A program made the position numbers and the translations under genes. The notes under the pieces were generated by a model, which ran no database searches, was not told the origin of the DNA, and saw only the letters and a program-made list of their open reading frames with translations. This document shows positions 5,652-44,568 of a DNA stretch of 64,000 nucleotides, piece after piece. How positions within the stretch are numbered: position 1 is the first letter of the stretch; each line of letters opens with the position of its first letter. Source of the stretch: a virus; IMG/VR virus record IMGVR_UViG_3300037104_000796, positions 1 to 64,000 of that record; one strand, written 5' to 3'.

Positions 5652-6317
5652 ATGAATTATTTAGCAGAGTTAGTTAATAAAGAATTGGATAAAAAGTACG
5701 CTAAAATGAATAGAGCAGAAGAAATTTGCAAAGCCCTCAAAATCGATTACAATCAGATTTTGAACATTTATCCTTACGGATCAAGAGTTTATGGGTCGAT
5801 TAATGAATTTTCTGATGAAGACTTTATTATCGTATACAAAGCTTCTTTACTTCCAAGCGGAGCATTCAAAGATAATGCTATTTCTTCAGAAGATAGAGAA
5901 ATTCAGGGCACATGTTTTTCACGTGGTGGATTTATTGATGCTTTGAATAACTACCAGATTGTTGCATTAGAATGTACATTTTTACCTGAAGACAAAATAG
6001 TTCAGAAGAAAATGAACTTTCCTTTGAGACAACTTGATAAAAAAGTGATGGCAAACAAACTTATTACAACTGCCTCAGCAAGTTGGCATAATGCAATTTT
6101 ATCTCACAAAGATAACAACATTTTGTACGCAAAGAAAAATATCTACCATGCTCTAAGAATACTCGAGTTTGGAATTCAGATTAAGAAATTTGATAAGATT
6201 GTAGATTATTCAGTAATGAATGATTTTAAAAGAGAATTGGACTTCAGAGCAGCAGATTTTCATGTTAGTTCATTTTTCCCAAGATTTACAGAATTATGTG
6301 AAATATTAAAAAGATGA
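5652..6317 (+). CDS. Nucleotidyltransferase of the DNA polymerase beta superfamily
   Basis: 222 residues from ATG at 5652, one base after the upstream stop. YPYGSRVYGSINEFSDEDFIIVYKA is the signature: a GSxxYGS turn followed by an acidic DED pair that binds metal ions and NTP. No HEPN or effector domain is visible. Its stop overlaps the RNA ligase start by ATGA, so the two are translationally coupled and may act together on RNA ends, perhaps adding nucleotides before ligation. The superfamily call is good; the substrate is inferred only from context. Confidence 0.75.
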   Translation: MNYLAELVNKELDKKYAKMNRAEEICKALKIDYNQILNIYPYGSRVYGSINEFSDEDFIIVYKASLLPSGAFKDNAISSEDREIQGTCFSRGGFIDALNNYQIVALECTFLPEDKIVQKKMNFPLRQLDKKVMANKLITTASASWHNAILSHKDNNILYAKKNIYHALRILEFGIQIKKFDKIVDYSVMNDFKRELDFRAADFHVSSFFPRFTELCEILKR

Positions 6318-7480
6318 CATATCAGTTAACATATAACGACGCAATTAAACTTTGCGAAGCATACAAGAACTTTAACTTCTATAAGACTGAACACATGTTC
6401 GGTAATTACAAAGTAGTTACATTCAACTATTTCTTGTGTGAATACAAAAACTTTGTGAAGCCATTAGAGAATGAGCCAAACATCAATGGACTTGATATGC
6501 GTGGTGTTACTTTCGTTTTCAATGAAGATGGAACTTTGTACAAAAGATTTTTGATGCTTAAGAAATTTTTCAACGTAAATCAGGTTGAAGAAACTCAGCT
6601 TTCCTTGCTTAAGTCTAAGAAGATTAAGAGTGTAACAGTTAAGGAAGATGGATCATTAATTGCATTTATGCAGTTACCTAATAAGAGTGTTTTTGCCAAA
6701 ACACAGGCAGGATTTACGAACGAACAGTCCTCAGCTGCTATGCAGTTATACAATCACCAGAAGGGAGTTAAAAAATTAGTTGATGAAGCACTTGAAGTTG
6801 GAATGACTGCTTTATTTGAATACGTTGCTTACGATAATAGAGTTGTTTTGAAGTACGCTACAAAAGAACTTCGTTTCATAGGTGTACGTGATAACAAATA
6901 TGGCGAATATATTTCAGCTGCCGAAATGGTTAACGACTCTTTATCAATTGTTCCTCACGTTAAAACAATGAAATTCAACTCATTGAACGAAATTGATGAA
7001 TTAATGAAGACCACTACCGATATGGAAGGTGTTGTAGTTGAATTTGAAGATGGACAGTTAGTGAAGTGGAAGACTGCATGGTATTTCAATCTTCATGGAA
7101 TTCGTACCGTAAATATTTTTAGAGAAGACTTCGTTATCAAAAATTACTTAGAAGGAACTCTGGATGACGCTACACAGGAATTGAACATGACTGATGATGC
7201 CGATGCTTTCAAATTCATCGATATAGTCAAAAGAGCAGTTGGAAATTGGGCGATAAATATTGAAGAAAACGTAGATGCTTTAGTAGCAGATTACAATACT
7301 TCGTTTTACTTTGGACATTGGTCAAAGTTTGCAACTGATAAACATAAATCAAAATTCTTCGGATTGGCTAGAACAAAAATAGAAACTCCGGAAATGTATA
7401 ACAAGAAAAAAGTTGGTTATATGTTGAATGCTACCAAGCATTTATTCGATGCGAAATATATAGTAGAAAAGTGGACATAA
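6314..7480 (+). CDS. rnlA: RNA ligase, T4 Rnl1 type
   Basis: 388 residues, close to T4 RNA ligase 1. Motif I is VTVKEDGSL, with K110 as the expected adenylylated lysine. Motif III lies in ALFEYVAYDNRVVLKY, motif IV is EGVVVEFEDG near residue 238, and motif V is LVKWKTAWY with K251 and K253. It seals 5'-phosphate and 3'-hydroxyl RNA ends using ATP; in T4 this repairs tRNAs cut by host defence nucleases. It is coupled to the upstream nucleotidyltransferase and overlaps a small downstream gene. With the kinase-like gene at 159-585 it suggests RNA repair. Confidence 0.9.
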   Translation: MTYQLTYNDAIKLCEAYKNFNFYKTEHMFGNYKVVTFNYFLCEYKNFVKPLENEPNINGLDMRGVTFVFNEDGTLYKRFLMLKKFFNVNQVEETQLSLLKSKKIKSVTVKEDGSLIAFMQLPNKSVFAKTQAGFTNEQSSAAMQLYNHQKGVKKLVDEALEVGMTALFEYVAYDNRVVLKYATKELRFIGVRDNKYGEYISAAEMVNDSLSIVPHVKTMKFNSLNEIDELMKTTTDMEGVVVEFEDGQLVKWKTAWYFNLHGIRTVNIFREDFVIKNYLEGTLDDATQELNMTDDADAFKFIDIVKRAVGNWAINIEENVDALVADYNTSFYFGHWSKFATDKHKSKFFGLARTKIETPEMYNKKKVGYMLNATKHLFDAKYIVEKWT

Positions 7481-34568: not shown

Positions 34569-35273
34569 ATGAATCATCAAACAATATATGATGAAATAAT
34601 TCGAAAGGCACAACTGAAAAACAGAATTAAATTAAACAACAAAGATTTGGCGTATACATATTACGAAAATCATCATATATTACCAAAATGTTTAGGAGGA
34701 ACAAACGAAAAAGGAAACAAAGTTTTATTAACACCAAGAGAACATTTTATTTGTCATAAATTACTTACATACATTCATCCACATCATTCTGGAATATCAC
34801 ATGCTTTTTTCAGAATGGTATTTGACAAAATAAAAAAACGCGAAATATCTTCAGCAGATTATGAATATGCTAGAAAATTATTAGCGATAAATGGATATGA
34901 TGATAAAACTAAACAAAAAATGAGTTTGGCGAAAAAAGGAAAAACATACGAAGAAATATACGGTGATGAAAAAGCAGAAGAACTAAAAACAAAACGAAGA
35001 GAAAGAAAACATACTAAAGAAGAAAAAGATAAAATTAAATCAGCTAGAAACAAATTAGAGTTAGATTCATCGTATAAAGAAAAACAAAAGAATTCTCGTT
35101 TAGGAATAAAAAATCCAATGTATAAAAAAACAGTTTATGACATCTGGGTTCAGAAATACGGAAAAGAAATAGCTGATAAAAAATACAAAAATTGGAAAGA
35201 AAATATATCTTTATCTTCAAAGGACAAAAGTAAACCAAGAAAATTAGTTAAAGAATATATAAATTATAAATAA
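34569..35273 (+). CDS. HNH homing endonuclease
   Basis: 234 residues, paralogous to the endonucleases at 29303, 35993 and 63249. The core is YYENHHILPKCLGGTNEKGN and LTPREHFICHKLLTYIH. It is followed by NUMOD-like motifs (TYEEIYGDEKAEEL, GIKNPMYKKTVYDIWVQKYG). It separates the sheath and tube genes, which are adjacent in T4-like phages. Confidence 0.85.
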   Translation: MNHQTIYDEIIRKAQLKNRIKLNNKDLAYTYYENHHILPKCLGGTNEKGNKVLLTPREHFICHKLLTYIHPHHSGISHAFFRMVFDKIKKREISSADYEYARKLLAINGYDDKTKQKMSLAKKGKTYEEIYGDEKAEELKTKRRERKHTKEEKDKIKSARNKLELDSSYKEKQKNSRLGIKNPMYKKTVYDIWVQKYGKEIADKKYKNWKENISLSSKDKSKPRKLVKEYINYK

Positions 35274-35938: not shown

Positions 35939-35976
35939 GTGTTTATTTCTTAATTTATGAAACTTTTATGGGATGA

Positions 35977-35992
35977 GATATATAATATAAAA
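35977..35992 (+). promoter_or_regulatory. Late-type promoter abutting an endonuclease start
   Basis: GATATATAATATAAAA directly before the ATG at 35993. Confidence 0.55.
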
Positions 35993-36805
35993 ATGAATCA
36001 TCAAAAAGTTTATGAATCTATAATTCAGAAAGCTAAATCTGAAAATAGAAAAAGATTAAGAAAAAATAATATCAATTATATTTATTATGAGAATCACCAT
36101 ATTCTGCCAAGATGTTTAGGTGGTAATGATAATAAAAATAATTTAATGTTGTTAACTGCTAAAGAACATTATGTTTGTCACAGATTGTTAACATACATTT
36201 ATAAAGGAAATTATAAAATCGAATGTGCATTTATATACATGTCATTTAGTAAAAAATATAATAAATGCATGTCATCTACAGATTATGTTTATGCAAAAGA
36301 ATTAAACGCAAAAGGACCATCAAAAGAAACATTGGAAAAATTAAAAAATAATCCATATATGAAAAATCGTCCATTTCCTTCTCCAGAAACTTGTTTAAAA
36401 TTAAGTGTAGCAAATACAGGGAAGGTTCGTTCTGAAGAATTTAAACATAATTTATCTATTCAACGAACAGGTGATTCGAATCCCGCAAAAACCACTGAAG
36501 CTAAAGCTCATATTTCTGCTAAACTTAAAGGAAAATTTAGAGGGGATGCAAATCCTATGTCAAAATCATCTCGCAAAAGAGAAAATTTAAATTTATTAGA
36601 AGAAAAAGGAATTAAATTAAAGGGTGATATGCATGAATATCTTCGCAAAAAAATTATATGCACTAATATTGAAACAAATGAAAATAATGTATTTGATGGT
36701 GTGCAAGAATTATTACATACATTAAAAATTAATAAAAGAAAATATTATTCTCATTTAAAAGATAACAAACCGATTTTAGGAAAATATAATTGCGTAGTCG
36801 TGTGA
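35993..36805 (+). CDS. HNH homing endonuclease
   Basis: 270 residues from ATG at 35993, which starts MNHQKVYESIIQKAKSENR like its paralogues; an in-frame ATG at 35957 would translate through the promoter. The core is YYENHHILPRCLGGNDNKNN and LTAKEHYVCHRLLTYIY. The C-terminus differs from its paralogues and resembles a helix-turn-helix target-recognition domain (NVFDGVQELLHTLKINKRKY). It follows the tube gene. Confidence 0.85.
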   Translation: MNHQKVYESIIQKAKSENRKRLRKNNINYIYYENHHILPRCLGGNDNKNNLMLLTAKEHYVCHRLLTYIYKGNYKIECAFIYMSFSKKYNKCMSSTDYVYAKELNAKGPSKETLEKLKNNPYMKNRPFPSPETCLKLSVANTGKVRSEEFKHNLSIQRTGDSNPAKTTEAKAHISAKLKGKFRGDANPMSKSSRKRENLNLLEEKGIKLKGDMHEYLRKKIICTNIETNENNVFDGVQELLHTLKINKRKYYSHLKDNKPILGKYNCVVV

Positions 36806-38135: not shown

Positions 38136-40919
38136 ATGAAGACATCGCCCGAACTATTATCTGACATACTTGGCGTACTTGGGCAAATGAGTACAAAAAT
38201 GGATGCTGCGAATGCTAAAGGTCCTGCAACCAAAAAAGAAACAAAAGTTACGTTTGGTGCTGCGGGTGTATTAGGAACATTAATGGGACAAAAGGGTGCT
38301 GCAGCAAAAATGGCTGAAGATGTTGAAAAACTTAAAACAGCCATGAAAGGATTTAATCTTGTTCGATTAAATCAAATGATCGATAGTCTTCGAAAATACA
38401 ATGACGTTTCAAAAGAAGGAGCCAGATCTAAAAAAGTTAGTGGATGGGCAATGGCAGCTCAAGATATGGGTAAAGCTCTTGTTTATATCGCAGGCGGAAT
38501 AGGATTGTTTGCAGGTGTTATTGCCGCTTCTGGAGGCTTATTAGGTGTATCGCCTTTAGGTGTATTCGGATTTATTATGGGATCAATGATAGCTTTGTCA
38601 ATAACAATGATGATTATTTCTGGAGGCGACGCAGGTGCAGAAAAAATAGCAGGTTTTTTAGGAGGAAAATCATCAACATTAAAAGCTGCAAAATCTGATG
38701 AAGGACGAAATAAAAAAGCTATTCAGAATGCTAAAGATATGGGTATTGCTCTTATGTTTATAGCAGGTGGAATAATAGCATTTGGACTTTCAATGAAAGT
38801 AGCCGGAGCAGTTTTGGGTATTGGAGCCTTATTAGTTCCTGTAGCCATAATGGCAGTGATAGGAGTTTTAGGTTTAACAATGTTAGGATTAGCAGAATTA
38901 ACTGGTATGGGTGATAAAGCTGGAGCCGGAACAGGAAAAAATAAAGGCAAATCCAAAGATGCAATACAAAATGCAAAAGATATGGGACTTGCTCTTATGT
39001 TTATAGCAGGTGGAGTAGTAGCATTCGCAATTGGTATGGCATTAGTTCCTGTTATTTTGAAAAAAACTTCGGTATTGTTAGCAATGGGAGAAATAGTGTT
39101 AATCATTGGTGGAATGGCTGCTTTAATTGGCATATTAGGATTAGCACAAAGATTTATACAACCCGGAATTGCAGTCGCCAAAGGAATTGGAGTTGCTTTA
39201 TTAATTTTATCAGCCGGTGTATTTGTAGTTGCTCTTACATCAAAACTTTTACTTGAAATGTTTAAAGGTTCGAAAACAGTCACTGATGAACATGGTAAGA
39301 AAACAAAAGAAAGAGGTGGACCGCTCGCAGCTATCGGGAATGCTGCAGCAGGATTAGGCATATTTGGTTTATTTGTTGCAGGTTTAGGTGCTCTTTTATG
39401 GGTAATGGGTCTTCCAATTATTTCAGGACCAATTGCTTTAGGTTCTCTTGCTTTAATAGGAATGGCATTTAGTTTAATAATGACTGCTGTAGCTATTAAA
39501 AAAGTTACCGATGTAATGAAAACTATGGACGTAAAAACTATTAAGACAAATGTGTCAGATATGGTTGGTGGAGTAATGAGTGGAGTAATTGAAGGTGTAA
39601 TGGGTTCTGGAGTTGATAAAAATAATGATGGAAAAATAAGTATAAAAGAAGTAATGCAATTCAGAAGAGTTACGAGAATGGTTCGTATGCTTGGAACAAT
39701 TTCATCTTCAATATCAAAATTTGCAGATGGTCTTAGAGCTTTTGCAAAACTTGGCGAAATTGCTTCTTTGGAATATGAATATAATGAAGATGGAACTGTT
39801 AAGAAAGCAAAAATTGGTGAAGGTGGAAAAATACATGTTAAAGAAATAGCGCAATCAATTGCAGATACATTTGGATTGTTTATCAAAACTTTAGTTACAA
39901 GTACTGAAGGAATGACCAGAAAACAAGCTCGATCATTAAAGATTTTAGGAAAAGCTTTAACAGGTGATAGAGGTTTAATTTCAGGTGTAAGTCAATTTGC
40001 TTCTGTATTGAAACAATTTGCAGAATTTGGTGCTGAAGGAAGTATATGGGTACCACCTCAATATGAAGATGAAAAACAAACAAAAGTTAGAAAAGGAACA
40101 GGTGAAAGCGTTCCAATAACAGTTATTGTTAAAAATATTGTTGATTCATTTGGAAAATTTGTATCAGAAATTGCTTCTCATGCTTCTGATTTTGAAGTAG
40201 GTGGTAAAGTAGGAAGAAAGATGCAAAAGTTTACTGAAGCTTTAATGGGTCAAGAAAAAGGATTTTTACGTAGAGCTAAACCAGGCATTCTTTCAGGAAT
40301 AACAGGATTTAGTGATGTATTACTTTTATATGCCGATTATGGCGCTGGCGGAAAAATTCCTAAAAAAGATCCTAAAACAGGCGAAATAATTCCGGGACAA
40401 TTTATTTTAGTAGATGAAGTTGCAAGAAATATGGTAAGTGGAATTACTACATTTACTAATTCTTTAAGTGCTGCTCTTAACGGACAAGACTTAGACAAAT
40501 CAGCCAAAGCAATTGATAAGAAAATGGGTTCATTCACAGATATCATAACTCAATTTGATAAAATGGCTGAATCACAAGAAGGATTAGATAAACTCGCTAA
40601 TTCATTAGGATTACTTGCAACAAATATGGGATTACTTGTAACGAATATGGGTAGTTTAAATACTGATAAGTTGCAATCATTAGCTACTATGTCAGCACAA
40701 CATGCTGTAACTACAAAAGGTATTCCAATAGCTCCAGTAGGTTCTGCTGCAGCAAATACCTCACCGGCTTCATCAGGCCAAGCTGATTGGGATAAAATAG
40801 CAGATAGAATGGGTGACATAATTGCTGCTAAACTTTCAGGTGGTAGAAATGGTGAGTTCAATTTCACGTTTTATGATGGAAACTCAGGCGGGAAACTCGA
40901 AATAAAAGAAAATAAATAA
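38136..40919 (+). CDS. Tape-measure-like tail protein with a central EF-hand loop, 927 residues
   Basis: The N-terminal half alternates charged helices with long glycine- and alanine-rich hydrophobic segments (ALVYIAGGIGLFAGVIAASG, ALMFIAGGIIAFGLSM and others), typical of tape measure proteins that insert into the host membrane. AIQNAKDMGxALMFIAGG occurs twice as an internal repeat. Residues 494-505 (DKNNDGKISIKE) form a canonical EF-hand calcium loop. The C-terminal half repeats segments of the type VDSFGKFVSEIASHASD. Position after tube and hub genes agrees with T4 gp29. Confidence 0.7.
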   Translation: MKTSPELLSDILGVLGQMSTKMDAANAKGPATKKETKVTFGAAGVLGTLMGQKGAAAKMAEDVEKLKTAMKGFNLVRLNQMIDSLRKYNDVSKEGARSKKVSGWAMAAQDMGKALVYIAGGIGLFAGVIAASGGLLGVSPLGVFGFIMGSMIALSITMMIISGGDAGAEKIAGFLGGKSSTLKAAKSDEGRNKKAIQNAKDMGIALMFIAGGIIAFGLSMKVAGAVLGIGALLVPVAIMAVIGVLGLTMLGLAELTGMGDKAGAGTGKNKGKSKDAIQNAKDMGLALMFIAGGVVAFAIGMALVPVILKKTSVLLAMGEIVLIIGGMAALIGILGLAQRFIQPGIAVAKGIGVALLILSAGVFVVALTSKLLLEMFKGSKTVTDEHGKKTKERGGPLAAIGNAAAGLGIFGLFVAGLGALLWVMGLPIISGPIALGSLALIGMAFSLIMTAVAIKKVTDVMKTMDVKTIKTNVSDMVGGVMSGVIEGVMGSGVDKNNDGKISIKEVMQFRRVTRMVRMLGTISSSISKFADGLRAFAKLGEIASLEYEYNEDGTVKKAKIGEGGKIHVKEIAQSIADTFGLFIKTLVTSTEGMTRKQARSLKILGKALTGDRGLISGVSQFASVLKQFAEFGAEGSIWVPPQYEDEKQTKVRKGTGESVPITVIVKNIVDSFGKFVSEIASHASDFEVGGKVGRKMQKFTEALMGQEKGFLRRAKPGILSGITGFSDVLLLYADYGAGGKIPKKDPKTGEIIPGQFILVDEVARNMVSGITTFTNSLSAALNGQDLDKSAKAIDKKMGSFTDIITQFDKMAESQEGLDKLANSLGLLATNMGLLVTNMGSLNTDKLQSLATMSAQHAVTTKGIPIAPVGSAAANTSPASSGQADWDKIADRMGDIIAAKLSGGRNGEFNFTFYDGNSGGKLEIKENK

Positions 40920-40983
40920 TCATTCTTTTAACAAATACTTAAAACTCTTCAATCTAAGTACATATAATATCTAAACAACAAAA

Positions 40984-41739
40984 ATGAAACAGTACTTAGA
41001 TTTATTACAGAACATTCTTGATAATGGTGTAGAAAAAGAATCAGGCCGTGTGATGTATTATCTCTATATAAAAACGAGTCCTCTTGGATTAAAATATTTA
41101 GGAAAAACAACTAAAGATCCTTTTGTGTATATGGGAAGTGGAAAGATATGGTTAAGACATATAAAAAAACATAACTTAACTTTGAAAGATATACAAACAG
41201 AAGTAGTTTTTGAAACTACAGATGTTAACGCTTTAATTAACGAGGGAATAAAATTAAGTAATGATTTAAATATTGTTAAATCACCAGAATGGGCGAATTT
41301 AAGAGTTGAATCTGGAGACGGAGGAGATACATCAAAATTTATAGATTATTCTAATCCAATATTTCATGAAAAAAATCGATCTGATCACTTAAATGGAATA
41401 GGAAAAACTGAAGAAGAGAGAAAAACTTTATTCAAAGAAAGAAGTCAAAAAATTGATTATGAAAATATACAAAGACTTCAAAAAATAAAAGATAATACAG
41501 ATTGGGAATCTTGGTACGAATCTATTAAAAATCGAAAAACGGATTACGCTAAATCACATGAAAATTTAAAAAAACCTATTTTGGTTATTAATATCACTTC
41601 AAATAAAATAAATGAATACAAATCTCTGAAGGACGCTTCTGAAGAACTTGGAATAAAATCTGAAACTATAAGAAAAAGAATTCAATATAATAGAATAATA
41701 GATGGATGTAAATGGGTACACAAAAATGAAATAAAATGA
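40984..41739 (+). CDS. GIY-YIG homing endonuclease fused to the first 22 codons of thymidylate synthase
   Basis: 251 residues. Residues 1-22 start MKQYLDLLQNIL and end GVEKESGR, matching the N-terminus of the adjacent thymidylate synthase at 16 of 22 positions. Residues from 23 are a GIY-YIG endonuclease: VMYYLYIKTSPLGLKYLGKTT, YMGSGKIWLRHIKKH and a glutamate in NEGIKLSN. The C-terminus has a NUMOD1-like helix-turn-helix (SLKDASEELGIKSETIRKRI). Its stop overlaps the thymidylate synthase ATG. It looks like an endonuclease that entered the enzyme gene and took over its old start. Target specificity is inferred. Confidence 0.85.
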   Translation: MKQYLDLLQNILDNGVEKESGRVMYYLYIKTSPLGLKYLGKTTKDPFVYMGSGKIWLRHIKKHNLTLKDIQTEVVFETTDVNALINEGIKLSNDLNIVKSPEWANLRVESGDGGDTSKFIDYSNPIFHEKNRSDHLNGIGKTEEERKTLFKERSQKIDYENIQRLQKIKDNTDWESWYESIKNRKTDYAKSHENLKKPILVINITSNKINEYKSLKDASEELGIKSETIRKRIQYNRIIDGCKWVHKNEIK

Positions 41740-42770
41740 AACAGTATTTAGACGTATTAAATAAAATTTTAACAGAAGGTGTGGAAAAAGAGTCAGGAAG
41801 ACTTAACATGCCGAATACTATAGGAATTTCTAACGCTTTGATAAAAATGGATCTTAGTGAAGGTTTCCCATTATTGACTACAAAAAAGATGTTTTTGAAG
41901 GGAATAATTTATGAGTTACTTTGGATATTACGCGGCGAAACAAATATTAAATATTTAGTTGATAAGGGTGTTAACATCTGGTCGGGTGACGCATACAGAT
42001 GGTATTTAACATTAATGAAAGGTAGAGTATCATCAATTCTTCCAATTGAAAGTCAAGAACAATTTATAGAATATATTAAATCTGGGAGAAAATTTACAAG
42101 AACAGATGAAAAAGGAAACGTGATATATTCGTTGGGTGATTTAGGTAAGGTTTATGGATATCAATGGAGGAAACAGAATGGTGTCGACCAAGTTCGAGAT
42201 GTGATTGAGGGACTTCGAGACAATCCATATAGTCGTTATCATATTATAGACGCTTGGAACAAAGCAGACTTCAAATATATGGCGCTTCCTCCTTGTCATT
42301 TACTTTATCAATTTATCGTACGACCAATATCACCTGAAGAAAGAGGAAAAATTGGATATGATAAATGGGAATATTTAAGAAAAACTAAACCTAAAAATTA
42401 TGTTGATAGTGATGTTCCTAAATTTTATCTTGATCTCAATATGTATCAAAGATCATGCGATACATTCTTAGGAGTTCCCTTTAATATCGCTTCAATGTCT
42501 TTGTTACTTATGATATTTGCGAAAGTATCTAATATGATTCCGGGTGTTTCAACTTGGATAGGTGGAGATACACACATATATGTTGATCATATAGATGTTG
42601 TTAAAGAACAAATCTCAAGAAAACCTAAAAAATTACCTACATTAGAGATTAAAAAAGATTTAAAAACGTTAGAAGATATTTTAGCGTTAACGATCGATGA
42701 TTTTAATTTACAAGGATATCAATCTGATGATAAACTTTTTGGCGAACTATTTACAGGAAATAAAAAATGA
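41736..42770 (+). CDS. thyA: Thymidylate synthase (ThyA type)
   Basis: 344 residues. It makes dTMP from dUMP using methylene-tetrahydrofolate. Motifs include GFPLLTTKKMFLKGIIYELLW, LGKVYGYQWR, LPPCHLLYQF with catalytic C187, RSCDTFLGVPFNIAS and WIGGDTHIYVDH. The usual RTGTGT segment after the N-terminal helix is altered to SGRLNMPNTIG, exactly where the endonuclease copy diverges. The start overlaps the upstream endonuclease stop by ATGA, so translation is probably coupled. With the thymidylate kinase at 59488 it raises dTTP supply. Confidence 0.92.
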   Translation: MKQYLDVLNKILTEGVEKESGRLNMPNTIGISNALIKMDLSEGFPLLTTKKMFLKGIIYELLWILRGETNIKYLVDKGVNIWSGDAYRWYLTLMKGRVSSILPIESQEQFIEYIKSGRKFTRTDEKGNVIYSLGDLGKVYGYQWRKQNGVDQVRDVIEGLRDNPYSRYHIIDAWNKADFKYMALPPCHLLYQFIVRPISPEERGKIGYDKWEYLRKTKPKNYVDSDVPKFYLDLNMYQRSCDTFLGVPFNIASMSLLLMIFAKVSNMIPGVSTWIGGDTHIYVDHIDVVKEQISRKPKKLPTLEIKKDLKTLEDILALTIDDFNLQGYQSDDKLFGELFTGNKK

Positions 42771-42774
42771 AATA

Positions 42775-43002
42775 ATGCCAATAGATTTTTCAGACACATC
42801 TAAATTAATAGATGAAATAAACGAAATGATTATGAAAGAAGAGATTGAAAACAAAGAAAAAACGGAAATTTGCGTTATTTGCGGAAAAGATACAGGAGTT
42901 CCTGTTAATCAAAATATAGATTTAAGAAAAACATATGTAGAAGGCGCAGGGCAACTTTGCAGTACTTGCTATAATAAACTTTATAATCCTAAATTAACAT
43001 AA
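42775..43002 (+). CDS. Small zinc-ribbon protein, 75 residues
   Basis: The start at 42775 gives MPIDFSDTSKLIDEINEMI. CVICGKDTGVP and LCSTCYNKLY provide two CxxC pairs for one zinc ion. It lies 4 bases after thymidylate synthase. Similar two-CxxC proteins are common in tailed phages; no function is known to me. Confidence 0.7.
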   Translation: MPIDFSDTSKLIDEINEMIMKEEIENKEKTEICVICGKDTGVPVNQNIDLRKTYVEGAGQLCSTCYNKLYNPKLT

Positions 43003-43005
43003 TAT

Positions 43006-43728
43006 ATGAATAAATTTCATTATGTTTATATTACTACAAATTTAATTAACGGGCATCAATATGTTGGAGATAGAACTTGTAATTGTGAACCCGAAAAAGA
43101 TGCATATTTAGGAAGTGGCAAATTATTTACAAAAAAGAAAAAGGAATATGGAATTCAGAATTTTAAAAAAGAGATATTGGAATTATTTGAAACAAAAGAA
43201 AAAGCATTTAATGCTCAAGAAAAATATATCATTCACTATAATACTTTAATACCAAATGGATATAATATAAGTCCTAAGGGTGGATATGGTGTGCCGGGAT
43301 CATTTTTACATGAAGAAACAAAGAAAAAAATAAAAACATCTAATAAAGGAAAACATAAAGAACAAATTAAACTTAATAACAAAAAATATAAAAAAGGAAA
43401 AAATTATGAAGAACAAATGATTAATACTTATGGAGAAGAAAAAGGAAAAATAAAAGCGGTAGAATATCATAAAAAAATATCGGAAAAAACATCAAAAGAA
43501 AATAATGGTATGTTTGGAAATGGATATTTAATAACAGGAGAAAATAATGGTATGTTCGGAAAAATATCTCCAATGAGGGGAAAACAATTTAATATAGAAC
43601 ATAACAAAAAAATAAGTGAATCAAAAATTGGAAAAGAACGAAACACACATCTATGTCCATATTGTAATAGAGAAATTGGAGATGGAAATTATGAAAGATG
43701 GCACGGAGAAAATTGTAAACAAAAATAA
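43006..43728 (+). CDS. GIY-YIG homing endonuclease
   Basis: 240 residues. The signature is FHYVYITTNLINGHQYVGDRT, then YLGSGKLFTKKKKEYGIQNF and the glutamate in AQEKYIIHYNTL. Repeats of the type NNGMFGN and ENNGMFGK are NUMOD3-like. The C-terminus ends in a CPYCNREIGDGNYERWHGENC zinc finger, shared with the endonucleases at 24880 and 56562. It lies between the zinc-ribbon gene and a glycosyltransferase gene. Confidence 0.85.
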   Translation: MNKFHYVYITTNLINGHQYVGDRTCNCEPEKDAYLGSGKLFTKKKKEYGIQNFKKEILELFETKEKAFNAQEKYIIHYNTLIPNGYNISPKGGYGVPGSFLHEETKKKIKTSNKGKHKEQIKLNNKKYKKGKNYEEQMINTYGEEKGKIKAVEYHKKISEKTSKENNGMFGNGYLITGENNGMFGKISPMRGKQFNIEHNKKISESKIGKERNTHLCPYCNREIGDGNYERWHGENCKQK

Positions 43729-43737
43729 AATAAAAAT

Positions 43738-44568
43738 ATGGGTCGCATAAAAAAATTATGTTATAATATAAACGCTTTTGATGCAAGCGAACTGCTTGAA
43801 ACTATGCTTACAGAGATAAAAGACGAAGTTAATTGCGTTAATGCTATATGGCAAGCAAAATCCTATTGGCAAAATCCTATGGATCCTATTGATATGGAAG
43901 AATTACATCGTTTAAAAAAAATAGGTTTAATTGATAATTTAATTGAATTTAAACCTGATTTTTTGGCATATGCTCGTCAACAAGAAACTGACAAAAGAAA
44001 TATGGGAATTATGTGGGCCAGAGAACATGGATATTCTCATGTGTTATCACTAGATGCCGACGAGCTCTACGACAAAGATCAATTCAAAGCTGCTAAAGCA
44101 GAAATTAATGCAAAAGGCTGGCCAATCACATACTGGAGTTACGTAAATTACTACAAAGATTTCAATCATTATTTAGTTTATCCGTTCAGGCCTTTCGTTA
44201 ATGGAATCCACTCAACTTATTTTACATATACCTTCAATGGTCCAGCTCCCGGACCCACTGATCCAACGAGAAGAATTTTGAATCCGCTTAATATAGGTAC
44301 CTATCTGTTTCCAGATGAAGTAATTAGAATGGCGCATGGAGCGTGGATAAGAAAGAATATTCGTAAGAAACTCGAGAACTGGAGTGCTAAAGATAATTTC
44401 AATAGACAACTTATTGATAAATGTGTACAACAATACGAAAATTGGAAAGAAGGTGATAATGCAGTAATGTTATTCAACGTTCCAGATAATAATGTATACG
44501 TAAAGAAATTGGAAACAAAAATTCATAAATTTGAAGTTCCGTGGTTACAAAACAAAAAAGAGGCTTAA
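43738..44568 (+). CDS. Glycosyltransferase-like protein, 276 residues
   Basis: VLSLDADELYDKDQF is a DxD-type sugar-nucleotide site in a GT-A-like fold, and the following WPITYWSYVNYYKDFNHYLVYPFRPF fits family-2-like enzymes that lack a full N-terminal signature. The start MGRIKKLCYNINAFDASELLETML would be the first Rossmann strand and helix. The last four codons (KKEA and stop) are formed by the terminator palindrome. Together with the fusion at 23068 this gives two glycosyltransferases. The acceptor is unknown. Confidence 0.65.
   Translation: MGRIKKLCYNINAFDASELLETMLTEIKDEVNCVNAIWQAKSYWQNPMDPIDMEELHRLKKIGLIDNLIEFKPDFLAYARQQETDKRNMGIMWAREHGYSHVLSLDADELYDKDQFKAAKAEINAKGWPITYWSYVNYYKDFNHYLVYPFRPFVNGIHSTYFTYTFNGPAPGPTDPTRRILNPLNIGTYLFPDEVIRMAHGAWIRKNIRKKLENWSAKDNFNRQLIDKCVQQYENWKEGDNAVMLFNVPDNNVYVKKLETKIHKFEVPWLQNKKEA

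Follow-up and report, generated by a model that had tools for sequence, protein, structure and literature searches.

Organization of the thyA locus

The window analysed here is a stretch of 64,000 nucleotides (64 kb) belonging to a 162-kb virus record. On its plus strand, which holds all the features of this locus, it contains an endonuclease open reading frame (ORF) of 251 aa (positions 40984-41739) followed by an intact thymidylate synthase gene, thyA (41736-42770), coding for a protein of 344 aa (PF00303, E=1e-84). The endonuclease stop and the thyA start overlap in the ATGA at 41736-41739, as reported in a first-pass annotation of this DNA, and the same overlap occurs in a related viral locus, L004.

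Both genes begin with a version of the same 22 codons: copy A (40984-41049) is in frame with the endonuclease and copy B (41736-41801) forms the start of the present thyA. Homology to uninvaded, syntenic relatives extends from the upstream gene into copy A and stops at 41049, where a junction codon follows, GTG (41050-41052), across which the frame remains open. Directly after the junction codon lies an internal ATG (41053), and related endonucleases begin near this position (MIYYLYIK, MYYLYLK). The body of the endonuclease extends from 41053 to 41739, with a GIY-YIG-like domain at approximately 41056-41268 and a NUMOD1 DNA-binding domain at 41572-41676. No notable microhomology was found at the junction, and a degenerate search of IMG/VR yielded no second case of it.

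The endonuclease is preceded by 64 nt (40920-40983) that leader alignments identify as the original thyA leader. Upstream of it lies an ORF of 927 aa (38136-40919) for which no significant Pfam or PHROG match was obtained; from its length and position our guess is that it is tape-measure-like. A similar gene lies just 5' of the uninvaded thyA in L048 and L009 and was used as a syntenic anchor: flanking synteny is preserved on both sides of the junction.

An intron at thyA was considered and rejected: no Rfam model matched in 39500-44000, and the endonuclease and thyA are separate open frames overlapping by ATGA, which leaves no space for one.

A further ORF, coding for a GIY-YIG endonuclease, is located just 3' of thyA (43006-43728) and has a homologue in L048. 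In L048 a NUMOD3-bearing endonuclease-like ORF (6080-6907) lies directly 3' of the uninvaded thyA; it is not found there in the window.

The endonuclease protein

The ORF combines a nuclease-like domain with a DNA-binding module, as homing-type endonucleases do: NUMOD1 was matched above the Pfam cut-off (E=2.8e-5) and PHROG 314, a homing endonuclease family, with E=9e-7. The match to TIGR01453 was weak and below cut-off. A structure search showed a resemblance between the C-terminal part and the DNA-binding end of I-HmuI.

The N-terminal domain appears to be a divergent relative of GIY-YIG, as suggested by profile comparison and by the predicted order of strands and helices. Profile-profile matches to recognised GIY-YIG ORFs, one of which is located just 3' of thyA in the window, gave E values of 5.6e-5 to 2.3e-6 with probabilities of 66-80%, and the predicted beta-beta-alpha-beta-alpha order fits the fold. 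The Pfam GIY-YIG model (PF01541) did not match the ORF, and structure searches with the whole protein and with the domain matched no solved GIY-YIG fold significantly. In an alignment of 19 sequences neither the canonical catalytic arginine nor the glutamate was invariant at the expected place; invariant residues included Y28, Y38-L-G-K, Y49, G-S-G, W56, H59, S92, N105 and E109. With the Pfam model missed, the catalytic residues not evident and no structural match, the nuclease role is argued from family membership and from the genetic pattern described below.

In the structure model the 22 residues encoded by copy A have low confidence and lie apart from the nuclease fold. No relatives of the endonuclease came to light when bacterial and archaeal genomes were scanned, and named phages gave distant matches only.

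Uninvaded relatives and other carriers

IMG/VR was scanned with ThyA, which yielded 67 loci, and with the first 90 residues of ThyA, which yielded 51 loci, partly overlapping with the former. Uninvaded relatives with an uninterrupted thyA, which the first-pass annotation had proposed to look for, were found (L048/L003, L008 and L009), with L048 and L009 syntenic to the window. The locus is thus polymorphic for the presence of the endonuclease, the same site being empty in L048, L008 and L009.

Besides the window, the endonuclease was found directly 5' of an uninterrupted thyA of the same type only in L004 and L035/L071; the three, with the window counted as one, are referred to as carriers. 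The endonucleases of L004 and L035 have a methionine start of their own and lack the 22 codons. Identity between the window and L004 was 83% for the endonuclease and 67% for ThyA, and the higher conservation of the endonuclease is as expected for a mobile element.

Two copies of the thyA start with different ancestries

Copies A and B are identical at 48 of 66 nucleotides and 17 of 22 residues and diverge right after Ser-Gly-Arg, as first noticed in the initial annotation. Their likeness exceeds chance, since the translated self-match gave E=1.3e-4 and codon bootstraps placed copy A nearest to an uninvaded thyA start in 99.98% of cases. The comparison drew on about 45 distinct 5' ends of related thyA genes.

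Measured against the consensus of endonuclease-free relatives, copy A is identical at all 22 residues and copy B departs at five, which bears out the earlier remark that the more ordinary ThyA start is the one on the endonuclease. When copy A was compared with the uninvaded L003/L008, 57 of 66 nucleotides and 22 of 22 amino acids were identical, every difference being synonymous. Copy B was closest to L004 and L035 (55 of 66 nucleotides each; the next best, 51), and its nearest match was a carrier with 76% support in codon bootstraps over the 66 nt. The three carriers were mutual best matches over codons 1-22 but not over codons 46-340.

The leader groups with copy A. It aligned to the leaders of uninvaded thyA genes in L009 (score 72), L008 (45) and L103 (42), in each case with none of 1000 shuffles scoring as well, and showed no similarity to the leader shared by the endonuclease relatives in L071, L076 and L093. 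With L008, local alignment covers the leader and copy A and goes no further than the final base of codon 22. This codon aligns with the conserved arginine near the N-terminus of solved thymidylate synthases, the residue that binds the dUMP phosphate.

By these alignments copy A with its leader is identified as the original thyA start of the uninvaded relatives, and copy B as a start of carrier type. The proposal that the endonuclease retained the old thyA start, with leader and copy A matching uninvaded relatives through codon 22, is in agreement with them. As to the replacement start, which had been thought either brought in or generated in place, the match of copy B to carriers supports the former and speaks against local making. 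Nor did the 22 codons turn up as a feature of the endonuclease family: none of the 18 aligned endonuclease relatives has them.

Mosaic structure of thyA

In most comparisons, maximum chi-square analysis located a break in the window thyA around nt 233-395, corresponding to an approximate 3' breakpoint zone at 41985-42125; 5' of the break the sequence is of L004 type. The mosaic tests gave p values of 0.0002-0.006 for L004 against six non-carriers; the comparison with L014 broke elsewhere, at nt 626. Control tests between non-carriers gave p values of 0.18-0.51. For the three carriers, the carrier partner was favoured on the 5' side in 63 of 64, 64 of 64 and 64 of 64 comparisons; for six non-carrier queries a carrier was favoured there in 6 to 57 of 93.

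Twelve nucleotides were common to all three carriers and present in fewer than 15% of 32 non-carriers. All of them lie within thyA nt 27-248 (41762-41983), which would represent the co-conversion tract, and no carrier-typical nucleotide was found at nt 265-1032 in the same comparison. Seven of the twelve are located within the first 75 nt of thyA, where random triples of non-carriers had a mean of 0.07 and reached seven in none of 500 draws. This recoding is concentrated at codons 9-23. The first base of codon 23 (41802-41804) is C in 3 of 3 carriers and 0 of 32 non-carriers.

These tests describe the window thyA as a mosaic, with a 5' part of carrier type and a 3' part of uninvaded type. From codon 31 on, the window ThyA is weakly sister to that of L004 (92/83), so plain descent could account for part of the shared 5' signal. 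L035 is placed apart from both by the rest of ThyA, with weak support, so that common descent alone is not a ready explanation of the shared 5' end.

Origin of the locus

The reading that we consider probable, argued from comparison of the sequences, is that the locus is the fossil of a one-sided, intronless homing event. It is built on four observations, namely the junction itself, the separate ancestries of the two copies, the mosaic thyA and the haplotype linked to carriers; the cut and its position are inferred.

The donor would have been an L004-like phage with the endonuclease directly 5' of its own thyA and with the 5' end of that gene recoded; the recipient would have been a co-infecting phage similar to L003, L008 or L009, with an empty thyA. 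The endonuclease would have cut the empty gene close to codons 22-23, where the conserved arginine is encoded. The site of I-TevI in the thymidylate-synthase gene is a different one. At the downstream end, homologous gene conversion would have imported the endonuclease together with about 250-390 nt of donor thyA. At the upstream end, non-homologous joining to the start of the endonuclease would have left the recipient leader and 22 codons in place as a stub, which would thereby have become the new start of the endonuclease. ThyA would have remained whole because the imported copy B supplies codons 1-22, and the recoding, especially that of codon 23, probably makes the imported allele uncuttable. 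In T4, one-sided homing is described to yield illegitimate junctions (PMC2988022).

The first-pass annotation had described the endonuclease as having captured the thyA 5' end. This needs amending, in that the end was not taken up as cargo: in its closest relatives, L004 and L035/L071, the endonuclease already adjoins an intact thyA, with the recoded 5' end travelling along; the stub is best read as the cut remnant of the recipient at a one-sided junction.

The 22 codons could instead have been kept for the benefit of the endonuclease, for instance as a translation start or for expression timed with thyA. In the window the usual family leader is missing in front of the endonuclease, where the leader and start of thyA stand instead, and copy A has no amino-acid change. 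Against this, the stub occurs in no relative, its residues are those modelled poorly and outside the nuclease fold, and a recent insertion accounts equally well for the intact frame. Such a benefit is rather unlikely to be the explanation of the stub; it is compatible with one-sided homing as a later gain. Since the stub occupies the place of the family's usual leader, expression of the endonuclease should follow the thyA start.

Phage genomes are mosaic and the catalytic residues of the endonuclease have diverged, as might be expected had ordinary recombination joined two pieces with no cutting involved. However, most of the loci seen for the family of the imported endonuclease are thymidylate-synthase genes, the tract is one-sided and of little length, and the carrier-linked recoding clusters at codons 9-23. 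We hold this alternative to be improbable.

Duplication of the thyA 5' end in place when the endonuclease inserted, followed by divergence, would agree with two copies that lie on either side of the endonuclease, point the same way and have 48 of 66 nucleotides in common. It was rejected as still less probable: the nearest relatives differ, being uninvaded in the case of copy A and the two other carriers in that of copy B, and the carrier-linked variants reach nt 248, past the duplicated part. A chimeric metagenome assembly, to which the absence of the junction from other contigs might point, is hardly credible, as the two sequences joined there have no stretch in common that is long enough to mislead an assembler, the endonuclease-ATGA-thyA join was found independently in L004, and the frame is open through the junction with synteny kept on both flanks.

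Comparison with known systems

Hybrids between mobile ORFs and genes are known from fungal mitochondria, in atp6 of Allomyces and in atp6, atp9, cox2 and nad3 of Glomus (PMC3630166). As at the present locus, an endonuclease ORF lies in the target gene, a diverged end has been imported and the displaced native end persists; in Glomus atp6 all differences between this end and the empty relative are synonymous (PMC3630166), as they are for copy A. In the fungal cases, however, it is the 3' end that has been replaced, with its native counterpart located downstream (PMC3630166), whereas in the window it is the 5' end, and in a phage. The displaced native start of the window is, moreover, fused in frame to the endonuclease and would provide its start, unlike in the fungal hybrids. 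The window locus works like the hybrids of the fungal type and is not one of them, but a mirror image at the 5' end.

The free-standing T4-type endonucleases SegF, SegG and MobE are likewise intronless, adjoin their target and co-convert flanks into relatives lacking the endonuclease, but the sources consulted describe none that bears a remnant of its target gene (PMC2988022). Homing of the T4 td intron can also proceed with one end joined by homology and the other illegitimately; that one-sided repair was experimental and involved an intron, whereas the window case is natural and intronless (PMC2988022). I-TevI, in T4 td, is a GIY-YIG nuclease on a thymidylate-synthase gene, which the window endonuclease would resemble in its GIY-YIG-like domain and presumed target; I-TevI is intron-borne and belongs to another protein subfamily (PMC2988022). 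The nrdA gene of phage Aeh1 is split by mobE, as thyA is split by relatives of the window endonuclease, while the window thyA is unsplit (PMC2988022).

In the open-licence literature no phage endonuclease was found to be reported with the cut stub of a target gene attached, nor was there a paper on split or fused phage thyA. The locus appears to record intronless homing in a form that is seldom encountered. Intronless homing inside a target gene should damage that gene; here a phage endonuclease would have entered a nucleotide-synthesis gene and yet spared it by means of an imported 5' end. The locus suggests where the cut fell (probably at codons 22-23) and where the conversion tract begins and ends, in a pattern otherwise described, in searchable papers, for fungal mitochondria only and at the opposite gene end.

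The endonuclease family at other thymidylate-synthesis genes

At least 15 other viral contigs carry a member of the same endonuclease family between two thyA halves, the split point falling in a variable loop around residues 91-106. Split genes were noted in L072, L073, L076-L091, L094, L096 and L101 (for example L076, 3630-5618), with an N-terminal ORF of about 105 aa, the endonuclease and a C-terminal ORF; these are candidate two-piece thymidylate synthases. Three of the split loci were examined for introns, and no match to an intron model was obtained. In L079, L080 and L096 the C-terminal half appears shortened or broken.

In L093 (3986-5365) a family member lies directly 5' of a ThyX-like ORF, recognised by eye, and in L092 (3995-5516) directly 5' of a distant ThyA-like ORF; both loci come soon after a dUTPase-like gene. 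In view of the split thyA loci and of the ThyX-like neighbour in L093, the family looks tied to thymidylate-synthesis genes, with L095, L097 and L100 as exceptions.

The window and the fetched loci were scanned for adjacent ORFs with similar starts; judged by eye, no other pair resembled an endonuclease with its target behind it, so that stub capture was not found to be a general habit. It is conceivable, as a tentative view, that an intronless family specialised on thymidylate synthase spreads through phages by carrying a recoded, cut-resistant 5' end of its target, with upstream placement, capture of a 5' stub or permanent splitting of thyA as three stable outcomes, and with the stub giving the endonuclease the start signals of the host gene.

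A conserved leader precedes the endonuclease in L071 (4900-4985), L076 (3900-3988) and L093 (3900-3985) (CCATCACCATA..TTTATAT), where the neighbouring genes differ; it is a possible promoter or operator.

Other ORFs in the record

GIY-YIG matches occurred at 11 places in the whole 162-kb record. Two ORFs of the window, at 34569-35273 and 35957-36805, have similar N-termini and are probably paralogous HNH-type endonucleases. Two adjoining ORFs on the minus strand, at 770-1896, also have similar N-termini and are likely to be tandem paralogues.
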